Source of the DNA: Deltaproteobacteria bacterium | Lineage (GTDB): Bacteria > Myxococcota_A > UBA9042 > PHBI01 | Reading direction: 5' to 3' | DNA length: 56,650 nt | Assembly (NCBI GenBank): GCA_016792665.1 | Contig: JAEUKJ010000237.1 | Location: 1-56,650 of the forward strand | Part shown: positions 2,185 to 35,880 of the stretch, piece after piece | Position numbering within the stretch: position 1 is the first letter of the stretch | How the letters are laid out: each line of letters opens with the position of its first letter | Notes under the pieces: model-generated | The model's input: the letters and a program-made list of their open reading frames with translations, nothing else | The model's database searches: none | What the model was told of the DNA's origin: nothing | Program-made: the position numbers and the translations under genes

Positions 2185-4983
2185 ATGTCGCATCCTCTCG
2201 ACGCTCCAGGTCGGCATGAGCTCGACTGGGCGCTGGCCGCGCTCGAGCGCGGCGCGAGGGCGATAGCGCTCGTCGGCATGGCGGGCGCCGGCAAGACGTG
2301 GCTCCTCGATGCGATCCAGGCGCGACTCACGCGGCCGAGCCAGCGCGTCGACGCCGGGCAGCTCGACGCGGCCGAGCCCGGGGGCGTCGTGTTCTGCGAT
2401 GCGCCCGCGGCCGACAGTGTGCTGCGGCTCCTCGAGCGCTTGGGACCCGAAGGGCAGCTCGTCTTCACGGCGCGGCGTCGGCCGAGCGGTGCGGCCCTGG
2501 ATGGGATCTGCGAGCTCGTCGAGGTCACCCCACTTGCGTTCTCCACCGGTCCGCGAGGCGGCGAGGGTGGCCCGGCCAGCGACGTCCGCGCGCCCGCGTC
2601 CCGCCACGACGATCCCGCAGCGCGCCTCCTCGGAGAGCTCATCCTGCGTCGGAGCCCGCGCCTCCTGCCCACGGGCCTCGACGCCGTGAGCCTCGAGATC
2701 TGGGGCCATCTCAGCACCATCGCGACCGCGGTCGATGGCCTCCCCGGGGCCTTGGTGCTCGCCGCCGAGGGGGCCCGCCTGATGGGCCTCGCGACCCTCG
2801 CGCAGCGCGTCCGCACCGAGCCCGAGCTCCTCTTCGGGCCGCTACTCATTGCGCTCGGCGCCGAGCTCGATGCGCTCTCCAGCCCGGTGCGGACCGCGCT
2901 CGAGCGGCTCGCCGTGTGCGCGAGTGGGGTGCGCGTCGCGACCGCCGAGGCCCTCGTCGTCGACCTCGCAGCGGGCGCCTCGTCTCGCTTCGGTGGTGCG
3001 CTCGGGCTCCTGGCCGAGCTCCGCGACTGGCACCTCCTCGTGCAGCGCGACGATCGGCTCGTCGTGCCGCGGCTCGTCCGCGTGGCCCTCGCGGCTCGCA
3101 CCGAGCCCCCGCGCCGCGACGTCGCGCTGCGCCTGGCCGCGCTCGCCGAGCAGACGACCCAGCGCGCCATGCGCGAGGGGCGCTCCGAGCCACTGGCCTG
3201 GATCGGGGCCGAGCGCGACGACCTCCTCCACGCGCTCGACTGCCTGGGCGACGCGCCGGCGGCCTGGCCGCTGCTGGACGCGCTGCTCCTCGAGCACTGG
3301 CGCGGCACGGCGCCATCGGTCCGCGCCCACATGACCGCCCTCCTGGACGGCCTCGACCGCCTCCTCGACACGCTCCCTGCCGAGCCTTCCGTCCCGCTGT
3401 CGCCTGCGGTCCTGTCCGCGCTCTTCCAGGCCTCGCGCAACACGTTCGGCCTCCGCGACGGCCCGCGCCTGGCTCGGGTCGCGGCGGCCCTCGAGCGCCT
3501 CGCCTCGGACAGCTTTGCGGCGGCGTGGGCGAAGGCGGCGCGGGCCATCGTCGCGAGCGAGCCCGAGCAGCGCGACCTGGTCCTCGCGACGATCGCGCAT
3601 GCCGACCGTGCGCGCGATCCGCTGGCCCTCGGCCTGGCCCACCTCCTCGCCTCGGGCGCCTTCGCGACGATCGAGCCCGACCTGGCGCGCCACCACGCCG
3701 AGGCCGCCCGCGACCGCTTCGAGGCCCTCGGCTACGACTGGGGCCACGCGACGGCGCTTGCCAACCTCGGCTACTTCGCCCTCTTCCGGGGCGACCTCGA
3801 CGCGGCCCGCCAGCACGCGCGCGACGCCATCGCCGTGGCCGAGCGGAGCGGCGACCGGAAGAGCCTCGCGACGTCGCTCGGGAACCTCGGCCTGCTCGAG
3901 CTCGACCAGGGCAACCTCGTCGTGGCGCGCGACCTCCTCGTCCGCTCCCACGACCTTCACGTCGCGATGGGGCGCATCGACTTCATGGTGGCCTGCTGGA
4001 ACGGGCTCGCGCGGGTCGCCGTCGAGGCGGTCGGGCCGGTGCTCTCACCGTCGGCGGCGCGCGAGGTCGACCGGGCCCAGCGCGCCCTGGGCGAGCTCGA
4101 GTCGCGCCTCGGTGAGCCCGACCGCCGCCGCCAGCAGCTCGAGAGCGCGCTCGTCCGGGCCGAGATGGCGCTCCTCTCGTCCGACCCCGAGACCGCGACG
4201 CAGGTCATCGACGCGGCACTGGCCCAGCCCGAGCTTGCCGAGCTCCCGGGCGAAGCCCTCGTCCTCCACGCGCGCCGTGCCTTGCTCGCCCCCGAGACCG
4301 CCGCGCCCCATCGCGCCGCGGTCGCCGCGCTCGCGTCCTCGACGACGGACGCCGCCCGTCGCGCCGCCGCTCTCGCCTACGCTGCCGTCTGGTGCCCCGA
4401 AGCGTCGTGGCCAGAGCGCGCCGCCGAGCTGGGCCGCCTTCTGCGCGTGCGGCTTGCCGGGACACCGCCACTCGGCCTCCAGCCCGCCTGGAACAACAGC
4501 GCGCTGGTGCGGGCGGCGCTCCGCACGAGCTGGCGCCTCCTCCCCGAGTCGCGCCGTCAAGACGTCGAGGCGGAAGCGCGCGACCCCGAGCACGTCCACC
4601 TCGTTGCCGCGCCCTCGACCGGCCGCTTCCGGATGCCGCGCCAGGCGATGAGCGACGTCAGCCGCCGCCCCCTGCTGGTCCACCTCCTGGGTCTCCTCGT
4701 CGCCGCGGCCCTGCGCGAGGAGCTGCTCGACGAGGCGACGCTGGGCCTCGCCCTCTGGCCAGGCGAGCGGATGCGCGACGACGCGCGCGCCAACCGCATC
4801 CAGAACGCGGTCTCGCTGTTGCGCAAGGCCGGCCTGAAGGACCACCTCGAGCGCGTCGGCGATCGCTACCGCATCGACCCGCACCTGCCAATCATCGTCG
4901 TGACCGGCGCGCGCGAGGCCCTCGATGTCCTCGATGCCCGCCCTGTCGCGCCTACTTCAGCGTCGGCCGAGGACCGAGGGTGA
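2185..4983 (+). CDS. STAND-type ATPase regulator with TPRs and C-terminal winged helix
   Basis: 932 residues. A P-loop is near the N-terminus (GMAGAGKT, 31-38), followed by an NB-ARC/LuxR-MalT-like nucleotide-binding region rich in Leu and Arg. TPR-like helices lie about 515-600 (for example ALANLGYFALFRGDLDAARQ). Residues about 820-900 resemble a winged helix of the OmpR/SARP kind (ALWPGERMRDDARANRIQ, then VGDRYRID). Such proteins are ligand- or partner-gated ATPases that act in transcription; here the DNA-binding domain is C-terminal rather than N-terminal. The ATG gives a start just before the P-loop module. The 3' end overlaps the convergent exported-protein gene by 32 bp. The divergent neighbour is the secreted protease, a plausible but unproven target. 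Confidence 0.75.
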   Translation: MSHPLDAPGRHELDWALAALERGARAIALVGMAGAGKTWLLDAIQARLTRPSQRVDAGQLDAAEPGGVVFCDAPAADSVLRLLERLGPEGQLVFTARRRPSGAALDGICELVEVTPLAFSTGPRGGEGGPASDVRAPASRHDDPAARLLGELILRRSPRLLPTGLDAVSLEIWGHLSTIATAVDGLPGALVLAAEGARLMGLATLAQRVRTEPELLFGPLLIALGAELDALSSPVRTALERLAVCASGVRVATAEALVVDLAAGASSRFGGALGLLAELRDWHLLVQRDDRLVVPRLVRVALAARTEPPRRDVALRLAALAEQTTQRAMREGRSEPLAWIGAERDDLLHALDCLGDAPAAWPLLDALLLEHWRGTAPSVRAHMTALLDGLDRLLDTLPAEPSVPLSPAVLSALFQASRNTFGLRDGPRLARVAAALERLASDSFAAAWAKAARAIVASEPEQRDLVLATIAHADRARDPLALGLAHLLASGAFATIEPDLARHHAEAARDRFEALGYDWGHATALANLGYFALFRGDLDAARQHARDAIAVAERSGDRKSLATSLGNLGLLELDQGNLVVARDLLVRSHDLHVAMGRIDFMVACWNGLARVAVEAVGPVLSPSAAREVDRAQRALGELESRLGEPDRRRQQLESALVRAEMALLSSDPETATQVIDAALAQPELAELPGEALVLHARRALLAPETAAPHRAAVAALASSTTDAARRAAALAYAAVWCPEASWPERAAELGRLLRVRLAGTPPLGLQPAWNNSALVRAALRTSWRLLPESRRQDVEAEARDPEHVHLVAAPSTGRFRMPRQAMSDVSRRPLLVHLLGLLVAAALREELLDEATLGLALWPGERMRDDARANRIQNAVSLLRKAGLKDHLERVGDRYRIDPHLPIIVVTGAREALDVLDARPVAPTSASAEDRG

Positions 4984-30309: not shown

Positions 30310-30435
30310 GTAGTCTGCTCAAAAATGGCCATCTGCGGCGTCGCTCGGAAAGAGTCGTCGCTGCGGCGTACTGAGAGTACGCCTCACTCCTTGTCTTTCC
30401 GGCTCCTTGCATATGGCCATTTTTGAGCAGACTAC
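30310..30435. repeat. Palindromic element A, starting at the hutU stop codon
   Basis: A 126-bp element bounded by perfect 23-bp inverted repeats (30310-30332 and 30413-30435; core tctgctcaaaaatggccat). Inside are a second pair, cggaaaga / tctttccg, and a central 19-nt hairpin (30365-30383, ggcgtact / agtacgcc). The TAG stop of hutU lies in the outermost bases of the right repeat. The same element, inverted, is at 38712-38839. Confidence 0.9.
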
Positions 30436-32162
30436 ACCCGGGGCGGGAGGTGGGGCACATCGACGCCGCGCTCACGGGCCGCGGCGATCGCCTCGGGGTA
30501 GCCCGCGTCCGCGTGCCGCATGACGCCCAGCGCCGGGTCCGAGTGCAGCACGCGATCGATGCGCTGGGCCGCCGCGTCCGTGCCATCGGCGACGATGACG
30601 ACGCCCGCGTGCTCGGAGTAGCCGATGCCGACCCCGCCGCCGCCGTGCACACTCACCCAGCTCGCCCCGTTCACCGCGTTCGCGAGCGCGTTCAAGATCG
30701 GCCAGTCGGCGATCGCGTCCGACCCATCGCGCATGTCCTCGGTCTCGCGGTTGGGGCTCGCGACCGAGCCCGAGTCGAGGTGGTCACGCCCGATGACGAT
30801 CGGCGCCTTGACCTGGCCGGTGCGCACGAGCTCGTTGAAGAGCAGCCCGGCCTTGTGCCGCTCGCCATAGCCGAGCCAGCAGATGCGGGCCGGCAACCCC
30901 TGGAAGGCGACGCGCTCGCGCGCCAGCGTCAGCCAGCGGCGAAGGTGCGCGTCGTCGGGGAAGAGCTCCAACAAGGCGCGGTCGGTCGTGTAGATGTCCT
31001 CGGGATCGCCCGAGAGCGCGACCCAGCGGAAGGGCCCCTTGCCTTCGCAGAACAGGGGTCGGATGTAGGCCGGCACGAAGCCCGGGAAAGCCCGGTTGAT
31101 GTCGTGATCGCGGTTGGCATCCGCTGCCCCTGTCTGTCCCCGGGCCTTCCGACCCTCGACGGCGCGCGCGCGGATGTTGTTGCCGTAGTCGAAGACCTCG
31201 GCGCCGCGATCGCGGTGGGCGATCATCTGGTCGACGTGGGTCACGACCGTGCGATAGGACGCGGCCAGGTAGTCCTCGGGGTCGGCCGCGCGCATGGCGG
31301 CGGCGGTTGCGAGGTCGATCCCGTCGGGCACGTAGCCGTACAGCATGTCGTGCGCGCTGGTCTGGTCCGTGACGATGTCGACCGCGACGTTGCCGTCCAA
31401 CAAGGCGCGATGCAGCTCGGTCGCATTGCAGCACACGGCGATCGACACGGCCCGCCCATCCGCCTTGGCGGCCACCGCGCGCGCGATGCCGTCGTCGATC
31501 GAGGAGGCCACCTCGTCGAGGTAGCGCGTCTCGAGGCGACGTTGGATGCGCTGCGGGTCGACCTCGGCGATGAGCGCCACGCCGTCGTTCATCGTGACGG
31601 CCAGCGGCTGCGCACCACCCATACCGCCGAGCCCCGCGGTCACCGTGAGCGTCCCGCGCAGGGTCCCACCAAAGCGCTTCTGCGCGATGGCCCCGAAGGT
31701 CTCGAAGGTGCCCTGCAAGATCCCCTGGGTGCCGATGTAGATCCACGAGCCCGCGGTCATCTGACCGTACATCGTCAGGCCCTTCTTCTCGAGGTCCCAG
31801 AAGATGTCCGAGGTCGCCCAGCGCGGCACGAACAGCGAGTTCGCGATGAGCACGCGGGGCGCATCCGGGTGCGACTTGATGACCCCCACGCACTTGCCCG
31901 ACTGGACCAACATCGTCTCGTCGTTGTCCAGTCGGCGCAGCGTCTGGACGATGACCTCCAGGCAGTCGCGGTTGCGCGCGGCCTTGCCGCTGCCGCCGTA
32001 CACGATCAGCTTCTCCGGGTTCTCGGCGACGTCGGGCGCGAGGTTGTTCATCAGCATGCGCAGCGCGGCCTCCTGCACCCAGCCCTTGCAGGAGAGGGTC
32101 GTGCCGGTCGCGGCACCCGTCAGCGCCACGGGGATGCGCGTGCCCTTGGAGTTCGAGGTCAT
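30432..32162 (-). CDS. hutU: Urocanate hydratase (urocanase)
   Basis: 576 residues, close to the usual 555-560. It converts urocanate to 4-imidazolone-5-propionate in histidine breakdown, using tightly bound NAD+ as electrophile. Seen here: [10 protein letters not shown] in the NAD-binding region, [15 protein letters not shown], the active-site Cys428 in [11 protein letters not shown] (equivalent by spacing from the C-terminus to Cys410 of the Pseudomonas enzyme) and [16 protein letters not shown]. No hutH, hutI or hutG is adjacent. The ATG overlaps the stop of the VanZ-like gene. The stop codon lies inside repeat element A. Confidence 0.96.
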
Positions 32163-32587
32163 GGAGGGTTCTCCGCAGGGGGTGGAGTGCGGCGCGCAAG
32201 GCGCGGCTCGAGGAAGAGGCTCGCGAGCGTCGCCCCGACGACGGCGCCGACGAGGTCCGCCAGCGCGTCGAGGAGGTCGGACGAGCGGCTCGGGACGTAC
32301 GACTGGAGCCACTCGGTCGCGAGCCCCCAGAGCCCGAGCCCGGCAACGATGACACCAAATCGTGTCATGATGGGGCGCCTCCAGAGGTGGCGCACGAGCG
32401 GCCAGAGACACACCGCCAGGGTCGCCCACGCGCCCGCGTGGACCAGCTTGTCGAGGTACGCGACGCTCGAACCGAAAGACCTCGGGCCCATCGGCATCAG
32501 CATCAGGATCGCGACGGCGACGAACGCGGCGACCGCCAGGACGATGGCGGCGACGGGCCGAGAGGAAGGTCGAGGAGGCCCGGACAC
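32159..32587 (-). CDS. VanZ-like small membrane protein
   Basis: 142 residues from a GTG one base after the stop of the upstream nuclease-like gene. Four hydrophobic helices; motifs [24 protein letters not shown] and [17 protein letters not shown] match the VanZ/PhoP-like family, small membrane proteins whose member VanZ gives low-level teicoplanin resistance and whose general role is unclear. It is translationally linked on both sides (1-bp gap upstream, 4-bp overlap with hutU), so all three genes are made together. No better start is available because the first helix begins soon after. Confidence 0.8.
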
Positions 32588-32588
32588 G

Positions 32589-33212
32589 TCACATCTTGTA
32601 CTTGCCGAAGTCCGACGGGTCGAGGTCCTCGAGCCGGACCTCCTCGCCGAAGAACGAGCGCGGACCGCTGTCGTCGACCACGGCCTTCGCCTTCGGGTCT
32701 GCGCCCGCGGGCTCGGCGCCGCCGGGCGTGCCGGGGCTGGGCTCGGACTTCGGCGCCGGGTCGCTGGCAGCGACCTCTTCCTCGGGTGCGAGACCGCCGG
32801 CCTCGTCGACGACCGCGCGCGCCACGCCGATGGGCGCGTCGGCCCGCAGCGCCAGCGCGATGGCGTCCGAGGGGCGCGCATCCAGAGAGAGCTCGCCGCC
32901 TTCTTGATCGACGATGCGGATCTCCGCGTAGAACGTGCCGCCTTCCAACCGTGTGATGAACACGCTGGCCACGCGGCACTGCACGGCGTCGAGCATCGAG
33001 ACCATGAGGTCGTGGCTCATCGGGCGCGGCATCTGGACGCCGGCCATGACGGTCGCGATGGCCGTCGCCTCGAGCCCGCCGATGAAGATGGGCACGTAGA
33101 GGCGCGGCTCGGCCAGACCGCGCAGGATGACGACGGGGACCTGGGTGCTCGGGTCGATGACGACCCCACCCACCCTCATCGCGATCATCTCTGCGAGGTC
33201 CGGATTGGACAT
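32589..33212 (-). CDS. Bifunctional-nuclease (BFN/DUF151) family protein
   Basis: 207 residues. Residues about 8-135 form the DUF151/BFN domain: VVILRGLAEPRLYVPIFIGG, EATAIATVMAG, RPMSHDLMVSMLDAV, TFYAEIRIVD, LDARPSDAIALALRADAPI. Members of the family have been reported as nucleases, but most bacterial ones are uncharacterised. The last 70 residues are Pro/Ala/Glu-rich and end FGKYKM. It is the first gene of the operon with the VanZ-like protein and hutU. The ATG fits the family start; no good Shine-Dalgarno is visible. Confidence 0.88.
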   Translation of the reverse strand: MSNPDLAEMIAMRVGGVVIDPSTQVPVVILRGLAEPRLYVPIFIGGLEATAIATVMAGVQMPRPMSHDLMVSMLDAVQCRVASVFITRLEGGTFYAEIRIVDQEGGELSLDARPSDAIALALRADAPIGVARAVVDEAGGLAPEEEVAASDPAPKSEPSPGTPGGAEPAGADPKAKAVVDDSGPRSFFGEEVRLEDLDPSDFGKYKM

Positions 33213-33300: not shown

Positions 33301-33687
33301 TCAGGCGAGCTTCTCCTGCGCCTTCTTCACGAGGTCGATGACGTCGGGGACCTTCTCCATGATCTTGTCGAAGAAGCCCTTCTTGTCGGCGATGGGCAGG
33401 ACCTCGACGTCGGTCTCGCTGAAGATGGCCACCGCGACCGGGCGCACGCGCGCGCCGATGCCGGCGAGCTGGCCGGCACCCTTGCCGCGCCCGCCCTTGT
33501 GGCGCTTCATCTCGGGCGCGTCGCCCTCGCCCTCGCCGCCACCCCCGCCCAGACCGACGGTGAGGCGCGAGAGGGGCACGAGGGTGACGCCGCCGATGAC
33601 GATGGGCTCGCCGACGACGACATTGCTGTTGGCGGTCTCTTCCAGCTTGCCTGCGACGAGGGCGATGAGGTCGATGATCGATTGCAT
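33301..33687 (-). CDS. GerW/YtfJ-family protein, copy 1
   Basis: 128 residues. The pattern VVVGEPIVIGGVTLVPLSRL, then a Gly/Glu-rich segment (GLGGGGGEGEG), RVRPVAVAIF and a helical tail (FFDKIMEKVPDVIDLVKK) is that of YtfJ/GerW, a protein placed at forespore membranes and needed for germination in Bacillus. Here the organism shows no other endospore genes. It is the last gene of the ECF sigma operon, 55 bp after a shorter paralogue. The Gly-rich block is longer than in Bacillus. Role here unknown. Confidence 0.82.
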   Translation of the reverse strand: MQSIIDLIALVAGKLEETANSNVVVGEPIVIGGVTLVPLSRLTVGLGGGGGEGEGDAPEMKRHKGGRGKGAGQLAGIGARVRPVAVAIFSETDVEVLPIADKKGFFDKIMEKVPDVIDLVKKAQEKLA

Positions 33688-33742
33688 GGTGTGTCCTGAT
33701 TCTGGGGGTTCGGGTTCGTGTTCGGGGCGGGCGATGCGCCCG

Positions 33743-34033
33743 TCAGTTGCCGAGCGACTGGACGCGGGCCTTGCCGTTCTCGATGATGATGACGGCCACC
33801 GGGGTGGCGCGCGCGCCGCCGCCGGCCCCGAGCCCGGTGCCCTTGCCCGAGGCGCCGCCGTGCTCGGTGCCTTCGCCCTCGCCGCCGCCACCGCCCAGGC
33901 CGAGGCGGAGCTCGCAGAGGGTGAGCACGTGGCGATCGCCGACGCTGATGGGGCGCGCGACCGTCGCGTTCTTCTGGACGAGGGCGGTGAGGCGCGTGCT
34001 CACCGACTGGAGGAGGTCTTTCACGTACTTCAT
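33743..34033 (-). CDS. GerW/YtfJ-family protein, copy 2 (short)
   Basis: 96 residues with the same order of blocks as copy 1: N-terminal helix (VKDLLQSVSTRLTALV), TVARPISVGDRHVLTLCEL, the Gly/Glu-rich run (LGLGGGGGEGEG) and ATPVAVIII near the end, but without the C-terminal helix. The two copies most likely arose by duplication and may form hetero-oligomers. The ATG overlaps the stop of the DUF2953 gene (ATGA), so translation is coupled. Confidence 0.8.
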   Translation of the reverse strand: MKYVKDLLQSVSTRLTALVQKNATVARPISVGDRHVLTLCELRLGLGGGGGEGEGTEHGGASGKGTGLGAGGGARATPVAVIIIENGKARVQSLGN

Positions 34034-34749
34034 GGGAGGTCTCCGTGGCTCGAGGATGCCGAGCCGATGCTCTGGGGTTGAGGTCGTGGGTCGGGAGGGG
34101 TGATGCGGCCGCGGAGGGCGCGACCGAGATCCGAGAAGAAGTAGAGGGCGAGGCCGACGACGAGGACGTGCCCCGGGATGAGCCAGCTCGTGAGGCGCCC
34201 TTCGAGGTCGAGGACGGCGTCGGAGTAGTCGACCTCGAGGTCGAGGGTGCCCGGCGGCAGGCGCGCGTCGAGTTGGTTCAAGGCCAGCGCGAGCCACACC
34301 GAGTCATCGGGCTCGGGCATTCCGACGGCACCGGAGACGCGACCGCGGAGGTGCAGCGTCGCGAGCATGCGCAGGGCGAGGCGCCAGAGGTGGTGGCGCT
34401 GTCGGAAGAACCAGACGAGGCCCGGGCCACGGCGCGCATCGGTCTCTTCGGACTTCTCGGACTTCTCGGACTGGGCGGGCTTCTTTTTTTTGCGGCGCGT
34501 GCGGCGCTTGTCCGGGGTGAAGCGCGCGATGGGGATGCCGAAGAGGCGCAGCGTCGGGCGCATACCCGAGGCGAGGTCGAGCCCGAGGATGCCCAGGGCC
34601 CAGCGGACGCGCAGCGCATAGCTCGCGTGCAGGGCCTCGCCGTCGACCTCGCCGCCGGCACGGAGGTGAAGCGGCGCGATGAGCACCAGCACGAGCAGCG
34701 ACCCGAGGGTGACCGAGAGCACGAGCAGGATGTCGACGAGCACGCTCAT
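34030..34749 (-). CDS. DUF2953-like membrane protein (YtfI-like)
   Basis: 239 residues. An N-terminal membrane helix (about 5-25), a beta-rich segment (LRLFGIPIARF), a strongly basic cytoplasmic stretch (RRTRRKKKKPAQSEKSEKSE, about 81-100) and a second hydrophobic segment near 193-212. In Bacillus, ytfI (DUF2953) and ytfJ (GerW) are neighbours; the same pair is adjacent here and overlaps by four bases, which supports both assignments. It starts three bases after the stop of the putative anti-sigma gene. Function unknown; a membrane partner for the GerW-like proteins is likely. Confidence 0.75.
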   Translation of the reverse strand: MSVLVDILLVLSVTLGSLLVLVLIAPLHLRAGGEVDGEALHASYALRVRWALGILGLDLASGMRPTLRLFGIPIARFTPDKRRTRRKKKKPAQSEKSEKSEETDARRGPGLVWFFRQRHHLWRLALRMLATLHLRGRVSGAVGMPEPDDSVWLALALNQLDARLPPGTLDLEVDYSDAVLDLEGRLTSWLIPGHVLVVGLALYFFSDLGRALRGRITPPDPRPQPQSIGSASSSHGDLP

Positions 34750-34752
34750 GGG

Positions 34753-35205
34753 TCAGGCTCCGAGCCGGAGGAGGCGGCGCCAGAGCGGGGGGCGCGGCTC
34801 GTCGCGGGCCATGAGGCGCGTGAACGGCGCGCTCACGAGGCTCGCCGCCCGCATGCTGTCGTCGGCGCCGCTCTGGATCTGCGCCGGTCCCCTGAAGGCC
34901 CACGCGGCCCCGGACAGGGCGGCGCGAAGGCGTGGCAGGCGCGCCCGGGTCGGCCCCGCTTCGGCGACTCCGAGCTCGGCCTCGATGCGCTCGATGAGCC
35001 CGTCGGGCACGTCGCTCGGCGGCAGGTCCTCCAGCAGGCTGCGCAGCGCGACCGCCTCGTGCAGGGCGCGGGCGACCTCGGGCGCGACCAGCGAGGCCTC
35101 GAAGGCACGCACCTCGCGCGGGGTCATGATGCCGTCGAGGTAGTCCTCGACCTGCTCCTCGAGCGAGGGGGGCGACGGGAGCGATCGTGGTGGCGAGGGG
35201 TTCAT
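34753..35205 (-). CDS. Putative anti-sigma factor
   Basis: 150 residues. The N-terminal 60 residues (VEDYLDGIMTPREVRAFEASL, then LHEAVALRSLLEDLP) have the helix pattern of anti-sigma domains that hold ECF sigma factors. The zinc motif HxxxCxxC is absent, so this would be a non-zinc type. No membrane helix is clear, so its signal may come through the membrane-bound DUF2953 protein. The call rests mainly on position: the ATG overlaps the stop of the sigma gene by four bases. It could instead be an unrelated small regulator. Confidence 0.6.
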   Translation of the reverse strand: MNPSPPRSLPSPPSLEEQVEDYLDGIMTPREVRAFEASLVAPEVARALHEAVALRSLLEDLPPSDVPDGLIERIEAELGVAEAGPTRARLPRLRAALSGAAWAFRGPAQIQSGADDSMRAASLVSAPFTRLMARDEPRPPLWRRLLRLGA

Positions 35206-35783
35206 CGTGCGTTCTCCTCGGGGTGGGCACCGAGCACGGGCGAGAGCAGCTTGCGGAGGGCCTGGCGGGCGCGAAAGAGGCGCGTCCGGACCGTGTTCAC
35301 GTTCATGCCGGTGGCCTCGGCGACTTCCACATCGGACTGTCCTTCGCGATAGCGGAGGTCGATGAGGAAGCGGTCTTGCGCGGGCAGTTGGTCGACCGCG
35401 CGCGTCACGAGGTCGCTGGCCTGGCGCACCGCGATGGCGGCCTCGGGGGTCAGGTCGCTCGAGGTCGCGAGGTCGAGCGTGTCGGGTGCGGTGAGGTCGT
35501 TCTTGGCATCGGCGACCTTGCCGAGGCGACGCAGGCAGACGTGGTAGGTCATCTTGCCGAGCCAGGGCGGCAGCGGGCGGGTGGAGTCCCAGGTGTCGAG
35601 GTAGCGACTCATCTTGACGAAGACCTCCTGCGTCGCGTCTTCGGCGTCGGAGGGGTTCCTGAGGGTGCGGAGTGCCAGGCGATGGATCATCGGCGTGTGC
35701 CGCCTGACGAGCTGGCGCCACGCCGCGGGATCGCCGTTGCGCGCGCGACGCACGAGGTCGGCGTCGCTTGGGCTGTCGCTCAT
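35202..35783 (-). CDS. ECF-type RNA polymerase sigma factor
   Basis: 193 residues. Region 2: DAEDATQEVFVKMSRYLDTW, then PPWLGKMTYHVCLRRL (-10 recognition and melting). Region 4: LPAQDRFLIDLRYREG and an HTH in VEVAEATGMNVNTVRTRLFRARQALR (-35 recognition). ECF sigma factors start transcription of small regulons, normally including their own operon. It is the first gene of a five-gene operon: sigma, putative anti-sigma, DUF2953, and two GerW-like proteins. ATG 35783 chosen because the longer in-frame start upstream adds only basic non-conserved sequence. Confidence 0.93.
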   Translation of the reverse strand: MSDSPSDADLVRRARNGDPAAWRQLVRRHTPMIHRLALRTLRNPSDAEDATQEVFVKMSRYLDTWDSTRPLPPWLGKMTYHVCLRRLGKVADAKNDLTAPDTLDLATSSDLTPEAAIAVRQASDLVTRAVDQLPAQDRFLIDLRYREGQSDVEVAEATGMNVNTVRTRLFRARQALRKLLSPVLGAHPEENAR

Positions 35784-35880
35784 CGGGGTGGTCTCGCCGT
35801 GTTCACACCGGTCCCTATCCGCCGTCCGGCGCGACCATTTCACGAAAAGCGCGGGCCGTCGCTCGGCCGCGAAACGACGA

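Follow-up and report, generated by a model that had tools for sequence, protein, structure and literature searches.

A conserved five-gene operon of Myxococcota probably links an autoregulated ECF sigma factor to DUF2953- and GerW-family proteins

Here we describe five coupled genes on the minus strand of a 56,650-nucleotide stretch of a Myxococcota genome (contig JAEUKJ010000237.1, all of it referred to as the window). Positions 33301-35783 encode an extracytoplasmic function (ECF) sigma factor, an anti-sigma-like protein, a DUF2953-family protein and two paralogues of the GerW family (Table 1). Judged from sequence, these genes very probably constitute a conserved ECF operon that regulates itself and delivers the DUF2953-GerW pair as output. 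The conclusion draws on the gene set and its conservation, the sigma factor clade, a promoter element with a near-copy elsewhere in the genome, and the missing zinc ligands of the anti-sigma-like protein. The component families are known, and in the literature searched we found no description of an ECF operon with a DUF2953-GerW-GerW output.

A preliminary description of this DNA had proposed a five-gene coupled operon, and this is borne out, all five genes lying where it placed them. The genes for the sigma factor and the anti-sigma-like protein overlap by 4 bp, as do those for DUF2953 and the first GerW paralogue; gaps of 3 bp and 55 bp separate the anti-sigma-like gene from the DUF2953 gene and the two GerW genes from each other. 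In genome searches centred on Myxococcota, the order sigma, anti-sigma, DUF2953, GerW1, GerW2 was identical in eight loci of several lineages, and thus the arrangement is not due to chance. These loci come from six genomes (3/3 of the window's family and three of family f30) and two contigs of metagenome-assembled genomes (JACRCZ010000010.1 and JAFGHH010000382.1); a profile scan of genome contigs yielded three loci. The sigma factor matches Sigma-70 region 2 (E=9e-13) and region 4 (E=1.5e-12) in Pfam. It is placed among ECF sigma factors by PF04542 and PF08281 matches above the cut-off, no further sigma regions and a total of 193 amino acids. In a tree with the best other ECF sigma factors from related genomes, the eight operon sigma factors form one clade (support 100/97), and shuffled labels never reached the observed clustering.

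The protein encoded next to the sigma factor had been called a putative anti-sigma protein, a likely assignment. All eight members are 150-196 amino acids long and carry a YLDG motif. The zf-HC2 match is below the cut-off in every one of them and covers the same profile segment, up to position 25-29 of 35, thus stopping ahead of the cysteine ligands. None of the eight contains a cysteine, so that the HxxxCxxC zinc ligands are missing, and none has a segment hydrophobic enough to form a membrane helix. The window protein also has an NCBIfam anti-sigma match (2.6e-5), again below the cut-off. Autoregulation of ECF operons, as well as the derivation of soluble anti-sigma factors from membrane-bound ones, is established (PMC8103513). 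The 150-amino acid protein is likely a soluble, zinc-less anti-sigma factor, which fits this described origin; judging by gene order and the 4-bp overlap, it may inhibit the sigma factor.

Upstream of the sigma gene, 46-70 bases before the start, all eight operons have a common promoter-like element; it follows the pattern GAAAY-N16-GGMTA in seven of them, and the remaining one (L032) has a degenerate form, GCAAC...GGATA. The pattern was derived from these eight upstream sequences, and its presence there is no independent test. Independent indications are as follows: shuffles of each upstream region matched it in 0-14 of 5000 cases, the window contains one match against 0.01 expected, and none of 14 DUF2953-GerW loci without a sigma gene (L036-L048, L053) contains it. 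In the window's own genome of 7.25 Mb, there are three matches in all. One of them (G000:C649:5562-5587, equivalent to L079 4063-4088; L064) is approximately 90% identical to the sigma promoter across 70 bp, with an alignment score of 103 compared with a best score of 35 among 200 shuffles, and precedes a TetR-type gene by 136 bp. Genome G176 has five matches, and none for a control pattern. Control of the operon by its own sigma factor, as proposed earlier, is probable given the conserved element in front of the sigma gene, to which the sigma factor would bind. As a separate observation, two operons of G176, one for an ATP-binding cassette (ABC) exporter and one of the TetR/TolC/HlyD/RND type, have candidate matches upstream of them (L081 2832-7796, L080 5225-11338).

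Table 1. Features of the operon and its predicted promoter, in window coordinates
Feature	Position	Strand	Basis and remarks
Predicted ECF promoter	35816..35841	-	GAAAT (-35 type)-N16-GGATA (-10 type); sigma start codon 58 bases further
ECF sigma factor, 193 amino acids, regions 2 and 4 only	35202..35783	-	Pfam; operon-sigma clade
Anti-sigma-like protein, 150 amino acids, no cysteine, no transmembrane helix	34753..35205	-	Weak zf-HC2 and sub-cut-off NCBIfam matches
DUF2953-family protein, 239 amino acids, one N-terminal transmembrane helix	34030..34749	-	PF11167 matches of homologues
GerW paralogue 1, short, 96 amino acids, no C-terminal helix	33743..34033	-	PF09579; alignment A3
GerW paralogue 2, long, 128 amino acids, with C-terminal helix	33301..33687	-	PF09579; alignment A3

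The assignment of the three remaining proteins to GerW and DUF2953 by the preliminary description is supported by profile searches, for GerW directly and for DUF2953 through homologues only. Both GerW proteins exceed the cut-off of 25 for PF09579 (Spore_YtfJ), with 41 bits for the short and 60.7 bits for the long paralogue. Against the NCBIfam GerW equivalog TIGR02874 they reach 24 and 49 bits, below the cut-off of 116.3, and are therefore family members and not GerW equivalogs. Within the sigma-bearing type, paralogue 2 retains a C-terminal helix, whereas paralogue 1 stops ahead of it. The DUF2953 protein of the window itself has no PF11167 match. Proteins in the same gene position pass the gathering score at L036 (30.3 bits) and L037 (27.1 bits; cut-off 22), and those of L031, L034, L039, L040 and L048 give sub-cut-off matches in the same protein portion. 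The window protein shares 28-42% identity with the DUF2953-position proteins of L031, L033, L034 and L035, and scores 214 bits with profile A2, a profile that includes the window protein itself. A strong N-terminal helix is present in every DUF2953 member examined (residues 7-25 in the window), and many members have a weaker C-terminal hydrophobic stretch. A lysine/arginine-rich stretch past the helix suggests that the remainder of the protein is cytoplasmic, where it could meet the GerW proteins, which have no signal peptide.

PF09579 is present in 21 of 284 Myxococcota genomes, and a profile of the DUF2953-position proteins matches in 20 of these 21 and in one of the other 263, marginally (E=9e-4). 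The sixteen rows of this profile stem from GerW neighbourhoods, so that matches at those loci arise by construction; the informative part of the co-occurrence is the near-absence elsewhere, and related genomes are not independent. One DUF2953 gene with two GerW paralogues is the usual arrangement in Myxococcota. This triad occurs without a sigma gene in at least ten genomes, and in families f16, f33 and f18 DUF2953 and GerW have no adjoining sigma gene. Variants of the neighbourhood were seen as well. At L041-L047, in several genomes of one family, a DUF2953-like gene stands between two GerW genes, without a sigma gene and beside an aminotransferase gene whose product resembles L-lysine 6-aminotransferase. 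At L036, GerW and DUF2953 are followed by a small GerW-like protein without the glycine loop (2869-3255, minus strand). A lone GerW protein with a C-terminal hydrophobic segment is encoded at L050 (9400-9813, minus strand), in a genome (G019) without a DUF2953-family match.

Downstream of the operon in the window, on the same strand, positions 30432-33212 encode a bifunctional-nuclease-domain protein, a VanZ-like protein and a urocanase. These genes were considered as operon members and not included, as no match to them stands beside the operons of relatives. A plasmid search with GerW2 gave no match.

Based on these results, we consider it reasonably probable that the genes form an autoregulated ECF stress operon whose output is a membrane-bound DUF2953-GerW complex. 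The soluble zinc-less anti-sigma-like protein would keep the sigma factor bound until a signal frees it. RNA polymerase with the freed sigma factor would then recognise GAAAY-N16-GGMTA in front of its own operon and at very few other sites, one of which would be the site upstream of the TetR gene. DUF2953 would be anchored in the inner membrane via its N-terminal helix, and the two cytoplasmic GerW paralogues would most likely join it in a membrane-bound complex that may support envelope integrity during stress. Several points weigh against this proposal. Complex formation is based solely on co-occurrence and gene order. Neither DUF2953 nor GerW has a structural match: PDB sequence searches with the GerW, DUF2953 and anti-sigma profiles gave nothing credible, and fold searches, made with poor AlphaFold2 models from 4-8 sequences (pLDDT, the predicted local distance difference test, of 61.5 and 53.9), gave nothing below E=0.4. 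LolB/LolA/RseB-like fold matches for DUF2953 were discarded as unusable. In G211 and G078, the promoter pattern matched no more often than a reversed-pattern control did. The contig with the TetR gene stops about 130 bases past it, which leaves the controlled genes out of view, and the window's own genome is 86% complete in 789 contigs, so that the regulon may be larger.

The DUF2953-GerW pair could instead be the sensor of the system, the membrane protein perceiving the state of the envelope and releasing the sigma factor via GerW. A membrane helix is missing from the anti-sigma-like protein in all eight operons, so that any membrane signal would need another carrier, and DUF2953 is the sole membrane protein of the operon. 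We nevertheless regard a sensor role as unlikely, because the sigma-less triads of Myxococcota and the occurrence of both families in Bacillus subtilis and Methanosarcina indicate that the pair has its own job. That the sigma and anti-sigma genes merely adjoin the DUF2953-GerW genes, with no functional tie, might also be read from the sigma-less triads, but it is highly improbable in view of the five-gene order shared by eight loci from several lineages, the operon-specific sigma clade, the gene overlaps and a promoter element present only alongside the sigma gene.

A starvation-induced module for dormancy or myxospore-like development would agree with the listing of a DUF2953 protein in a membrane-proteome study of Bacillus cereus spores and vegetative cells (PMC8624511). 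We find such a role quite unlikely. Spo0A and SpoVA were absent from all ten GerW-bearing genomes searched, with a positive B. subtilis control, in keeping with the earlier remark that nothing else here points to endospores, as far as these genes go. GerW in 21 of 284 genomes is no general myxobacterial trait, and control searches found both PF09579 and PF11167 in Methanosarcina, a non-sporulating archaeon, as well as in B. subtilis. The preliminary description had linked GerW to germination and called the module sporulation-like. The first is contradicted by later work in which deletion of gerW left germination unaffected in B. subtilis and Bacillus megaterium (PMC4366231), and the second is not upheld; together with the presence of both families in Methanosarcina, this indicates that the pair is not an endospore marker. 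In Bacillus, gerW is forespore-specific (PMC4366231), and GerW was recovered with the RNA-binding proteins of B. subtilis during sporulation (PMC12456014). We tentatively raise the possibility that DUF2953 and GerW form an ancient, spore-independent membrane complex, possibly RNA-binding, which was taken into the forespore by endospore formers and which in these Myxococcota came under a dedicated ECF stress sigma factor with a zinc-less soluble anti-sigma factor.

GerW and DUF2953, both conserved families, have no assigned function. A dedicated sigma factor and a predicted promoter offer a handle on that function in hosts that lack the endospore genes tested, and open a pair of spore proteins to study within a stress response. 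The label "sporulation protein" of PF09579 misleads annotation.

In conclusion, the operon can be compared with two known systems. In Bacillus, ytfI and ytfJ (DUF2953 and GerW) are presumably adjacent. Both protein families (PF11167 and PF09579) are shared between B. subtilis and the Myxococcota studied here. By contrast, the operon described here has two GerW paralogues, one of them without the C-terminal helix, and the tested endospore genes are absent from the ten GerW genomes searched. It also includes the genes for an ECF sigma factor and a putative anti-sigma factor, whereas Bacillus gerW is attributed to sigma F (PMC4366231). With autoregulated ECF systems, it shares a two-domain sigma factor, a co-transcribed anti-sigma candidate and a promoter, here a predicted one, before the sigma gene. 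The nearest known promoter is that of Bacillus sigma W (TGAAAC / CGTA). The operon differs from such systems in that its anti-sigma candidate is soluble and without zinc ligands, its -10 type is GGMTA, and DUF2953 and two GerW genes are predicted to be co-transcribed with the sigma gene.
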